DNA of 64,000 nt from contig JABWCE010000015.1 of assembly GCA_013359235.1 (NCBI GenBank), positions 1-64,000 of the forward strand, in the 5' to 3' direction. Every line of letters starts with the position of its first letter. Within the stretch, counting starts at the first letter, position 1. Position numbers and translations under genes: made by a program. A model generated the notes under the pieces. That model was not told where the DNA came from, made no database searches, and saw only the letters and a program-made list of their open reading frames with translations. This DNA is from Bacteroidota bacterium. GTDB taxonomy: Bacteria; Bacteroidota; Bacteroidia; NS11-12g; UBA9320. Positions 60,246 through 64,000 of the stretch are shown piece by piece.

Positions 60246-60325
60246 GAAAATAAAAAAATAAAAATTTTTAGTTTTTGTATTTGCATTAAAACAAAAAACA
60301 GATAATTTTGCAGCCCTTAAGCGGT

Positions 60326-60402
60326 GGGGAGTTTGGTTTTTCAGTAACAGAGCATCCCGAGTTATTCGGGAGGTGTAATTGGGGAGAGAGGAAGAAAATA
60401 AT
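60326..60402 (+). pseudogene. tRNA-like unit 1 (77 nt)
   Basis: Exactly 77 bases before unit 2 and 154 before tRNA-Val. The last 59 bases are identical to those of unit 2. It has a D-arm-like GTAACAGAGC and a 5-bp stem TCCCG/CGGGA with 7-nt loop at the anticodon-arm position. There is no TTCGAAC T-loop or paired 3' acceptor strand. It reads as a decayed or remodelled tRNA copy. Confidence 0.55.
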
Positions 60403-60479
60403 GGGAAGCATAGTTTACTGGTAACAGAGCATCCCGAGTTATTCGGGAGGTGTAATTGGGGAGAGAGGAAGAAAATAAT
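60403..60479 (+). pseudogene. tRNA-like unit 2 (77 nt)
   Basis: Begins GGGAAGC like the GGGAGCT of the real tRNA and reads TAGTTTACTGGTAACAGAGCA where tRNA-Val has TAGCTCAGCTGGTTCAGAGCA. The TCCCG/CGGGA stem holds loop AGTTATT, whose anticodon-position triplet would be TTA, but position 33 is G rather than T. The T-arm is replaced by a purine-rich stretch. It joins tRNA-Val with no spacer. Confidence 0.6.
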
Positions 60480-60554
60480 GGGAGCTTAGCTCAGCTGGTT
60501 CAGAGCACCTGCCTTACAAGCAGGGGGTCACTGGTTCGAACCCAGTAGCTCCCA
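60480..60554 (+). tRNA. tRNA-Val(TAC)
   Basis: Acceptor GGGAGCT/AGCTCCC, D-arm GCTC...GAGC, anticodon stem CCTGC/GCAGG with loop CTTACAA (anticodon TAC), T-arm ACTGG-TTCGAAC-CCAGT, discriminator A. CCA is not encoded. A strong terminator follows at once. Confidence 0.97.
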
Positions 60555-60563
60555 CAAATCAAG

Positions 60564-60598
60564 CAAAGGGATTCAAAAAAATGAATCCCTTTGTTTTT
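60564..60598 (+). terminator. Rho-independent terminator after tRNA-Val
   Basis: A perfect 12-bp stem CAAAGGGATTCA / TGAATCCCTTTG with a loop of six A, followed by TTTTT. It ends the tRNA transcript. Confidence 0.92.
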
Positions 60599-61087
60599 AA
60601 TAAAATTTGATTAGTACAAAAGCAATTAAATATTGTGATTTGCTTTAAAAGTGAGGAACGAACTTCGCGAATGCCAAAATTTAAAAAATAAAAGTAAATT
60701 ATGAGCAAATAGTATATTTGAAATGATAATTACAACGTAAACTATCGCCAATTCCATAGTTGGCAGCAAGCGTAAAACGACACTACACAGCAGACATTGA
60801 CCGAGTGAAAACAGAAAAAAGAGAAGCAAATTTTGACAAGTGGACAACGACATACAGATCATATTGAAAACGGACAACGAGTAAGCCGACACTCATTGCC
60901 GACCCTTTGTTTTTTATTTTTTTCCCACCCGCATTTTTTAAAAACAATTTTGAGCCACCCCGCAAGTGGCACATTTGGCTTTGCCCCACCCGCAAGCCGA
61001 CCCTTCAGCAAAGCCAAAAGAGCCACTTCTTTGCCCACGCTTAACGATAATTTGCGATATTCACGAACTAAAATTCTTGACTTTTAA
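60599..61087. other. Non-coding stretch at island edge
   Basis: About 490 bases with no convincing gene. It holds recurring GGACAACGA-type words (for example near 60842, 60871 and 61112), scattered short inverted motifs, an 11-bp inverted repeat (listed separately), and base composition less AT-rich towards 61 kb. An 84-codon open frame at 60833-61087 has unlikely composition and is not called. It may hold remnants of mobile DNA. Confidence 0.5.
60966..61026. repeat. Bipartite 61-bp inverted repeat
   Basis: GTGGC-aca-TTTGGCTTTGC ... GCAAAGCCAAA-aga-GCCAC: an outer 5-bp and an inner 11-bp arm, both perfect, with symmetric 3-nt bulges and a 23-nt centre. No T-run follows on either side, so it is not a simple terminator. 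It resembles foldable recombination or mobile-element sites. Confidence 0.75.
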
Positions 61088-64000
61088 ATGCTATTAGATA
61101 ATAAGACAAAAACAGAGGACAACGAACACTACAAGGTGTTTGACTTCATAAAAGGGAACACCGAAAACGGTGCTCTTGACCTAGTTACAGGTTACTTTTC
61201 AGTGAACGCTTTGGCGTTAATGAAAGACAACATCAACACGGTTGAGAAATTCAGACTGATTCTAGGAAACTTAATGCAGGAAGAATCACAGTTAAACAAA
61301 GTGATTGACCTACTAAATGGTAACACCAGTATTAACTCGACACTTTCTTTAAGCACATCTGCACAAAAAGCCGTTGAGTTTCTGCAACAAGACAAAGTAG
61401 CTGTAAAGAATATCCAAAAGAACTTTTGCCACGCAAAAACATACTTATACACCGACAAGACCAAAACTAAAAACTATTTCATTGTTGGCAGTTCTAATCT
61501 GACAGACGCTGGACTTGGTATCAAGGACAGTTCTAACATAGAATTGAACATTGCCAAACACGACTATGAGGACGAATTCAAAAACTTGAAAAAATGGTTT
61601 CAGGAACAATGGGAAAAAGTGGCTTTAGAAAAAATCGAGTTGCCTGACAAGACCAAAGTTGAAGTAAAGCAATACATCATTGAACTGATTAAAAACCTGT
61701 TCAAAGAATACACACCACACGACCTTTATTTCAAAGTCCTTTACGAAATGTTTAAGGACGACATAATGGAACTATCAGGTGATGCAGAGTTCAAACGTGA
61801 AATAGCTCACTTAGAAGAAACTATCATTTACAAAACACTTTTCCCTTACCAACAAAAGGGAGCAATCAGTTTAATTAAAATGCTCCAAAAATTCAACGGA
61901 GCTATTTTAGCGGATGCGGTTGGTTTGGGTAAAACCTGGACTGCTTTAGCAGTGATGAAGTATTTTGAACTGAAAGGTTACACCGTTCTTTTGCTATGCC
62001 CGAAGAAACTATCAAACAACTGGCAACAATATAAAGTAGGACAACAAAGCCGATTTGAAAAAGATGAAATTGATTTTTACATCCGCTATCATACCGACCT
62101 ACAAGAGGGACGTTTTGACCGTTACAACGACAAAACACTTCGCTATTTCAAGACCAGACCAAAATTGTTGATTGCTATTGATGAAAGCCACAACCTGAGA
62201 AATGATAAATCTTCCCGATACAAATTCCTGATTGACGAAATTCTGCTTCCTGAAAATAAAAGCAGAGATGTAAAAGTATTGCACCTTTCTGCAACGCCTA
62301 TCAACAACAAACTGATGGACATTCGTAATCAGTTTAAGTTGATGACAAAAGGCTTGGATGATGGCTTTAAGGAAACCGATTTAGAAATTGAAAGTCTTGA
62401 AAATATTTTCAAAACTGCACAAAAGGATTTCAGCGAATGGTCAGATATTGACGAACGGAAAATTGCCGATTTCATCGCCAAACTTCCCAAGAAATTTGAA
62501 AAGCTAACCGATGCACTCATTGTTGCAAGAACAAGAAAATTGATTGAAGGTGAATTCGGTGAAATGAATTTCCCGAAAAAAGAAGACCCCATCAATGAGT
62601 TTGTAACTCCTGAAAACATTGGCGACCTAAAATCATTTGATGATATACTGGATGCCATTTCGGTAAACCTAACGGCTTACCGACCTGCGGACTACATCAA
62701 AAACATTTCTCCAAAGAGTGTGCTGGAAGATGAAAAGCAACGTCAAAAGTTCCTAGTTAAAATGATGTATATCCTTTTGATGAAGCGACTGGAATCCAGT
62801 TGGTTTTCTTTCAAAAGCACCGTTGAAAACATTTTAAATCATCATACCAATGCATTAAACAAAGTCAATCAGTTTATTCAAAGCAAAACCGACAGTGCCA
62901 TTGACGATGAATTGACCGAAGAAGAAAAAGAAGAAATTGACGAAACGGCAGCAGAGATAGACGGAGAAACAGAAGAACCTATCACACTCGGAAAGAAACG
63001 ACCAATTCCGCTTTCATCCATTACAAACATTTACAACTTTAAAAAGCACTTAGAAGCCGACATCAAAAAGCTTTCAAAACTTAAAGCAAGTCTCGACAAA
63101 TACGAAACTGACTTCAATGCTGGCAAAGCTGAAGATGATAAACTCAATAAACTTATAGAGCACATCAACAGCAAACAAAAGAAGTCTAACAACAAAAAAG
63201 TGTTGGTGTTCACGGTGTTTAAAGACACAGCCAAATTCCTGTATGATGAATTGAAGAAAAGAGGAATTCAGAATGTGGCTTTTGTTTCAGGTTCTATCAG
63301 TGAAACTTTTGATGGCTATTCAGGAGACAAGTTTGAACCCATTTTGGAACGCTTCGCACCTTTCACCAAACTATACAATGAAAAAGATTGGTCTGACCTA
63401 TACGAAAGAATAAATCTTTCAGAAGATTTCAGAGAAGCCGACAAATGGAAAGTGCCTTACACAAAATGGTTAGAGATAATCAAGCAACACGACAAAACTA
63501 CACAAACTAAAATTGAAAAGCCAATTGATATATTGATTGCCACCGACTGTTTGAGTGAAGGACAAAACTTACAGGATTGCGACACGGTGGTAAACTATGA
63601 CATTCACTGGAATCCTGTTCGTTTGATTCAGCGAATGGGTCGTATTGACCGTATTGGTTCACCCAACAAAACCATTAAAGGCATCAACTTTTGGCCCGGA
63701 GATAACTATGAAGATTATCTTAATCTGAAATCAAGGGTTGAGAACAGAATGGCTTTAATGACTGTCGTAGGAACAGAACTGGACGACAAAATGACTCCCG
63801 AACTGCACAAAATGGTAGAGGAAAATCCATTGCTTCCAATGCAAGCCCAAAAGATGTTGGAGCAGTTACTAATCACTTGGGACGATGTAGAAACCAGCGA
63901 TGACACGTTGGGATTGAACGACCTTTCATTGGAGCAATTCAGACAAGAGTTGTTTGAGTTCTTCAAAAAGAATGAGGAATTCTTCAAAAAAATACCCAAC
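61088..64000 (+). CDS. HKD/PLD nuclease-SNF2 helicase fusion, 3'-truncated
   Basis: ATG 61088; the frame stays open for 971 codons to the window end. Residues 1-~200 are a phospholipase D-like half with HAK (H115, K117) and GSSNLTDAGLG; the usual Asp two turns later is shifted by one. Then an SNF2 helicase: ADAVGLGKTWTA (Lys282), AIDESHNLRN (365-368), LSATP (about 400), and the C-lobe VLVFTVFKDTAKFL, ATDCLSEGQNLQDCDTVVNYD and QRMGRIDRIGS (848-858). HKD-SNF2 fusions are a known but poorly characterised group, often in restriction or defence loci. It is less AT-rich than the rest of the window, suggesting transfer. The partner genes lie beyond the window. Confidence 0.9.
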   Translation, partial: MLLDNKTKTEDNEHYKVFDFIKGNTENGALDLVTGYFSVNALALMKDNINTVEKFRLILGNLMQEESQLNKVIDLLNGNTSINSTLSLSTSAQKAVEFLQQDKVAVKNIQKNFCHAKTYLYTDKTKTKNYFIVGSSNLTDAGLGIKDSSNIELNIAKHDYEDEFKNLKKWFQEQWEKVALEKIELPDKTKVEVKQYIIELIKNLFKEYTPHDLYFKVLYEMFKDDIMELSGDAEFKREIAHLEETIIYKTLFPYQQKGAISLIKMLQKFNGAILADAVGLGKTWTALAVMKYFELKGYTVLLLCPKKLSNNWQQYKVGQQSRFEKDEIDFYIRYHTDLQEGRFDRYNDKTLRYFKTRPKLLIAIDESHNLRNDKSSRYKFLIDEILLPENKSRDVKVLHLSATPINNKLMDIRNQFKLMTKGLDDGFKETDLEIESLENIFKTAQKDFSEWSDIDERKIADFIAKLPKKFEKLTDALIVARTRKLIEGEFGEMNFPKKEDPINEFVTPENIGDLKSFDDILDAISVNLTAYRPADYIKNISPKSVLEDEKQRQKFLVKMMYILLMKRLESSWFSFKSTVENILNHHTNALNKVNQFIQSKTDSAIDDELTEEEKEEIDETAAEIDGETEEPITLGKKRPIPLSSITNIYNFKKHLEADIKKLSKLKASLDKYETDFNAGKAEDDKLNKLIEHINSKQKKSNNKKVLVFTVFKDTAKFLYDELKKRGIQNVAFVSGSISETFDGYSGDKFEPILERFAPFTKLYNEKDWSDLYERINLSEDFREADKWKVPYTKWLEIIKQHDKTTQTKIEKPIDILIATDCLSEGQNLQDCDTVVNYDIHWNPVRLIQRMGRIDRIGSPNKTIKGINFWPGDNYEDYLNLKSRVENRMALMTVVGTELDDKMTPELHKMVEENPLLPMQAQKMLEQLLITWDDVETSDDTLGLNDLSLEQFRQELFEFFKKNEEFFKKIPN

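Follow-up and report, generated by a model that had tools for sequence, protein, structure and literature searches.

Next to a tRNA-Val gene of this Bacteroidota genome lie two adjoining genes, one for an HKD nuclease and SNF2 helicase in a single chain and one for a PglX/Eco57I-type N6-methyltransferase, which probably form a two-gene, ATP-dependent restriction-modification (R-M) system with the HKD-SNF2 protein as its nuclease half. The methyltransferase also hosts a DUF559 nuclease in its own reading frame, which would be a separate passenger, most likely a homing-like parasite. The window, that is, the whole stretch of DNA analysed, comprises the first 64000 bases of contig C18 of genome G000, which is 70989 bases long in all. 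Positions past 64000 continue the numbering of the window, and contig positions 60001-70989 are also referred to as locus L003. The features of the locus are as follows.

60480..60555, + strand: tRNA-Val(TAC), neighbour of the system; a role as attachment site was not borne out
60633..60738, + strand: single degenerate long-form CRISPR repeat, type II-C-like, between the tRNA and the system, where the sister genome G002 has an array
61088..64000 in the window, whole gene 61088-64474, + strand: HKD nuclease and SNF2 helicase gene, 1128 aa (Pfam, PADLOC, motifs)
64481-68437, + strand: PglX/Eco57I-type N6-methyltransferase, 1318 aa, beyond the window on contig C18
65977-66517, + strand: in-frame insert in the methyltransferase, three 48-nt repeats followed by DUF559
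66122-66454, + strand: DUF559 (Vsr-like) nuclease in the insert (Pfam, 1.7e-30)
65965-66013 and 66469-66517: inverted arms, palindromic repeats that bracket the insert

The HKD-SNF2 gene and its partner methyltransferase

The open reading frame of the HKD-SNF2 protein runs off the window at 64000, and its stop at 64474 was read from the contig. Pfam places a PLD-like domain first (PLDc_2, 6e-8, residues 81-175), with the SNF2/ResIII part (SNF2-rel, 3e-10; ResIII, 8e-8) and Helicase_C (3e-16) behind it. In the HKD part, H115, K117 and G134-S-S-N137 are invariant in 24 homologues, as are Walker A (G279-L-G-K-T283), the DESH box (D365-E-S-H368) and motif VI (Q848-R..G-R-I-D-R855) of the helicase; H115 and K282, singled out as active-site residues in a first, sequence-only reading of this DNA, are thus genuine motif residues. 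The PADLOC profile C3a139 HKD+Snf2 (PDLC01075) matches residues 24-904 with 261 bits (E 8e-78; no PADLOC cut-off is printed). Scores against the NCBIfam model DrmD (142.5 bits) and against NF042964, a phospholipase D-like anti-phage protein (110 bits), are below the respective cut-offs of 610 and 1100 bits. The AlphaFold model of the protein is poor (pLDDT 56). The sequence-only reading had also presented PLD and SNF2 parts in one chain as a departure from known systems. The fusion is real but not new, as it has a PADLOC profile and as HKD-Swi2/Snf2 fusions have been described as effectors in Type-2 BREX-related systems (PMC12839542).

The methyltransferase gene, a partner whose presence past 64000 had been raised as a possibility, starts only 6 bases after the stop of the HKD-SNF2 gene. 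It encodes an Eco57I/N6-MTase domain and a TaqI_C specificity domain, keeps the DPACGSG and NPPY motifs, and has PglX/BrxX as the best fold match of its model (2e-10). Its GC content is 40-41% in the N-part and core, 46% in the insert and 29% in the specificity domain. As for a DUF4391-like partner, which had been proposed as well, no such protein is encoded on the contig; that layout is known from Enterococcus plasmids, where more distantly related helicases are accompanied by DUF4391, a DEAD-box protein and a methyltransferase. Although profile similarity to type IIG models is present, the methyltransferase has no conserved N-terminal PD-(D/E)XK nuclease of its own. In its N-domain the candidate residue E99 is kept in 15 of 20 sequences and position 101 is a lysine in four of them, and no conserved PD-(D/E)XK lysine was found in these 20 sequences, so that cutting most likely falls to the HKD protein.

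According to the model that we favour, the methyltransferase would recognise its target through the C-terminal specificity domain and methylate host DNA at N6-adenine, thereby protecting it. Invading DNA without the modification would recruit the SNF2 motor, which would translocate, and the HKD domain would cut; as there is a single HKD half-site per chain, it would probably do so as a dimer. Target sites would change by exchange of the specificity domain. With SNF2 as the motor and HKD as the cutter, the roles would be shared out just as has been predicted in the case of Type-2 BREX-related systems (PMC12839542).

DUF559 nucleases within other proteins

The insert spans residues ~500 to 678 of the methyltransferase and lengthens by ~180 aa the linker that joins the N-part to the methylase core. 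No stop interrupts the 1318-aa frame, and the motifs on both sides of the insert are intact. The nearest methyltransferase orthologues have only a short linker at this place and no DUF559 (the linker is empty in L007-L009, L012, L014 and L024). Structure 3hrl (PDB) matches the insert at 9e-15. In the model of the methyltransferase this part shows no resolved fold, probably because the aligned homologues lack the insert. Pfam finds DUF559 alone between the host parts, with no splicing (Hint) domain around it, unlike in an intein. As in REP/RPE-type elements, a palindromic repeat is translated in the host frame, but the nuclease cargo goes beyond that definition; nor is the insert a RAYT/REPtron, as it holds DUF559 rather than a Y1 HUH transposase between REPs. 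The palindromic ends would be translated into a low-complexity peptide of the host, and the nuclease would be tolerated without splicing by folding as a looped-out domain. The repeats of the insert (a 166-nt block) occur only once in the genome, so the insert may have arrived passively with the methyltransferase gene.

The same linker is occupied in three orthologues (L011, L028 and L036) by an in-frame, RAYT-like Y1 transposase with palindromes, Y1_Tnp having been found in L028. Across 296 genomes from the phylum, this transposase has five close relatives, all of them in long open frames. In the genomes searched, the lineage (L011, L028, L036 and L148-L152) occurs only in frame, within methyltransferases and HsdR.

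Of the DUF559 matches listed for the same 296 genomes, 25 are in open frames 300 aa or longer. The host proteins comprise four HsdR, two HsdM and three MetH (the last with the same linker), together with LeuRS, RecG, AddA/RecB-like helicases and enzymes of the Eco57I type and of type ISP; there is also an N-terminal fusion to HisF. Several of the host genomes are single-contig, which makes mis-assembly unlikely. Inverted arms beat all 20 shuffles in 15 of the 25 loci. The second in-frame DUF559 of the genome studied here (G000:C33:26382-26687, L109) is part of a protein whose C-terminal domain is of type ISP and has near-perfect inverted arms. The arm AAAAAGCTCC...GGAGCTTTTT is common to the copy in the methyltransferase and to a type ISP copy in another family (L089). 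At the MetH site, one genome has 193 residues (G273) and another of the same genus has an empty site of 25 (G360).

Residues E19, D49, E60 and H66 of the DUF559 domain are invariant in 52 copies. A tree of these domains has supported groups for HsdR (four copies from three families, 100/99), MetH (three copies from three families, 100/93), HsdM (100/98) and LeuRS (97/81). In contrast, the type ISP copies fail to cluster together, so that the rule of one lineage per site is not general. Altogether this speaks for mostly site-specific DUF559 lineages with selection on the nuclease. Such lineages could stem from old insertions followed by many losses, and in the R-M cases DUF559 may have been carried along when the host gene was transferred. 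Identities of 0.78 for the HsdR insert and 0.55 for its host point to a younger insert, a comparison that we did not count as the synonymous sites are saturated.

LeuRS served as a test case, with 21 species of one genus aligned. Genomes of the genus with a match have one leuS each, with frames of 940 to 1233 aa. The DUF559 insert is found at exactly one place, around residues 236/240 of Thermus thermophilus LeuRS, in five of the 21 species, and the other 16 have a loop of 5-7 residues there; all genes are single copy. In one of those 16 (L135), the left palindrome alone remains. The dN/dS of the insert is 0.05-0.20. In post hoc comparisons of pairs that overlap and are not independent, synonymous divergence is lower in the insert than in the host for two pairs (0.138 vs 0.439, Fisher p 4e-9; 0.575 vs 0.756, p 3e-4) and weakly so for a third (0.193 vs 0.304, p 0.03), with no difference in a fourth, saturated pair (L103-L130). 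The insert thus looks younger than the surrounding gene, which is what homing or another allele-limited transfer would produce. In three leuS genes without the nuclease (L131, L134 and L145), the AT-rich repeat AAATTCAAAATTCAAAATTC occupies the insertion site; the loops of other LeuRS proteins contain short translated palindromes such as SSPLGRSGG.

On balance, we lean towards regarding these DUF559 nucleases as mobile elements widespread in Bacteroidota, which would lie in frame in linkers of essential or defence proteins, stay unspliced, and home from one allele to another by means of their own nuclease. It is slightly easier to view such an element as an 'intein without splicing', with the methyltransferase described here as one of its hosts, than to do without that notion.

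Two other explanations of the insert need to be considered. DUF559 might be a working part of the methyltransferase, making it type IIG-like with its own cutter, kept by selection for restriction. Many of the hosts are indeed R-M proteins (HsdR, HsdM, type ISP and Eco57I-type enzymes), and the nuclease residues are conserved. However, the closest orthologues do with a short linker, the same domain is found in MetH, LeuRS and RecG, proteins with no use for a nuclease of this kind, and repeats bracket it, all of which makes a function in restriction unlikely. Slightly less probable still is that the insert broke the methyltransferase and that the operon is decaying. A loss of function would be conceivable with ~180 aa placed between the N-part and the methylase core, and the 97% identical copy L006 passes into other sequence at its contig end, exactly at the linker; yet the 1318-aa frame is open with intact motifs on both sides, and single-copy LeuRS genes with the same kind of insert keep an intact reading frame as well.

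The tRNA-Val site and the spread of the gene pair

The tRNA-Val gene is followed by ~530 nt without a convincing gene and then by the HKD-SNF2 gene from 61088, in line with the non-coding DNA and large PLD-SNF2 gene described in the sequence-only reading. That reading had also taken the locus for the start of a tRNA-anchored island. The tRNA does border a variable region: in the sister genome G002, different genes and a CRISPR array of ~20 repeats (L051) come after the same pair of ribonucleotide reductase and tRNA-Val genes, which argues for a variable site rather than a demonstrated att site. A tRNA-anchored integrative element beginning with the HKD-SNF2 gene would agree with this variable content, with the position of the gene beside tRNA-Val and with its shift in GC content. 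The shift, announced as a visibly lower AT content, is true but modest: the gene has 37.6-38.0% GC compared with 33.0 ± 2.8% in 30 ORFs of 250 aa or more that lie upstream, and is thus about level with the GC-richest of them (37.7%). Against such an element, none of the genes as far as the contig end at 70989 encodes an integrase, and there is no copy of the tRNA-Val 3' end with up to 3 mismatches in the 10 kb downstream, where the longest exact copy has 9 nt. We therefore dropped tRNA-Val as an attachment site and regard an integrative island as improbable.

Other elements of the surroundings deserve mention. A CRISPR repeat similar to the one behind the tRNA is found at the end of contig C6 of G000, and contig C14 carries a Cas9-like gene. 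Between the likely promoter and tRNA-Val, a 77-nt sequence containing the palindrome CCCGAGTTATTCGGG is directly repeated at positions 60325-60478, its two copies being 90% identical; G002 has ~30 nt in their place. After the methyltransferase, the genes to the contig end encode an abhydrolase and a HARE-HTH protein. Two stretches with no known gene, 68494-68892 (L003:8494-8892) and 69840-69970 (L003:9840-9970), flank the alpha/beta hydrolase gene and contain imperfect inverted repeats (e.g. GCGTGTTGCCGCAATTGGCG ... CGCCAACTGCGGCAACACGC); they look like cassette boundaries.

Scanning 84,980 species genomes for the helicase yielded 33 loci with 41-97% identity, from Bacteroidota and from metagenome-assembled genomes (MAGs) labelled Ignavibacteria, Spirochaetes and others, labels that can be wrong. 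The helicase is split or shortened in four of them (L015, L030, L034 and L035). In most of the informative loci the same methyltransferase family is encoded 3' of the helicase, directly or past one small gene. Where present, this small gene is variable (L010, L016, L018, L019, L028, L029 and L034-L036), and by eye we judged its products as KilA-N-like, PDDEXK, AAA, Fic or Bro-like. Among closer relatives, identity is 71-83% for the helicase and 57-91% for the N-part and core of the methyltransferase, and 23-56%, over partial coverage, for the specificity domain. Thus, L007 shares 83% of the helicase and 85% of the methylase core with the system described here, but only 27%, over two thirds of its length, of the specificity domain. 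A conserved helicase and methylase core beside a diverged specificity domain is typical of R-M systems whose target site changes. It is very improbable that the HKD-SNF2 protein acts alone against modified DNA in a type IV-like manner, with the methyltransferase as a chance neighbour, as SauUSI-type enzymes, with PLD nuclease and helicase in one chain, might suggest, since the methyltransferase is conserved beside the helicase in most informative loci.

The helicase was found in none of 37 genomes of family relatives, six of them from the same genus, and copies 92% and 97% identical are present in Schleiferia thermophila and a Bacteroidales MAG. Together these observations show horizontal acquisition, and the sequence-only reading was right in taking the gene for an acquired one of the defence type. 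A recent arrival of the system is the simplest reading of this distribution.

Known systems and significance

Type ISP enzymes (LlaBIII/LlaGI) likewise combine an ATP-dependent motor, a nuclease, an N6-methyltransferase and a specificity domain. They do so in one chain and with a PD-(D/E)XK-type nuclease, whereas here the motor and HKD cutter are encoded by one gene and the methylase and specificity domain by another. DISARM differs in that none of DrmA, DrmB and DrmC adjoins the HKD-SNF2 gene on the contig, and the DrmD score is too low. Type-2 BREX-related systems share the HKD and Swi2/Snf2 helicase and an N6-methyltransferase with the system described here, but they also have a DUF499 ATPase and DUF3780, neither of which is found on the contig (PMC12839542, where SauUSI-type enzymes are cited too). 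A close match is the PADLOC candidate C3a139 HKD+Snf2 (PDLC01075), which has the same HKD nuclease and SNF2 helicase in one chain. PADLOC 2.0 offers a profile for it but describes no mechanism; the present analysis adds the pairing with a PglX-like methyltransferase and the insert. We thus file the defence system as a variant of known HKD-SNF2/N6-methyltransferase systems, close to C3a139.

Several precedents exist for parts of the DUF559 arrangement. Rickettsia palindromic elements and REPs place palindromic DNA in frame in genes, including those for tRNA synthetases and repair proteins (PMC10969869, PMC3733652), but these insertions code for short peptides rather than for a complete, conserved nuclease. 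The RAYT/TnpA-REP 'REPtrons' are repeat-flanked coding elements, for which unexpectedly long proteins were set aside as fusions or annotation errors (PMC6006769); RAYT-like copies fill the same linker in orthologues of the methyltransferase, but its own nuclease is a PD-(D/E)XK DUF559, not a Y1 HUH enzyme. ShiLan is a homing-like insert without splicing domains that leaves open the frame of a phage DNA methylase (PMC11855218). Its HNH nuclease is hidden in another frame, whereas DUF559 is read here in that of the host. The Vsr/DUF559 endonucleases, such as PDB 3hrl and VsrA of Caulobacter, a DUF559 protein that triggers the SOS response in vivo (PMC12907096), have the same domain, but stand alone instead of being embedded in another protein. 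In the open-access literature searched, no description of DUF559 as an in-frame element came up, and the titles and abstract starts of open-access papers naming DUF559 do not mention mobility. The insert is therefore a strong lead to a new class of element.

The defence genes give the HKD-SNF2 candidates a defined two-gene layout, which two proteins suffice to test. Of greater importance is the in-frame insert, as a whole nuclease is tolerated inside the essential LeuRS in five of 21 congeners. If our reading of it is true, a domain annotated merely as of 'unknown function' would be a selfish element living in other proteins, and many long Bacteroidota 'fusion' annotations would be parasites rather than multi-domain enzymes.
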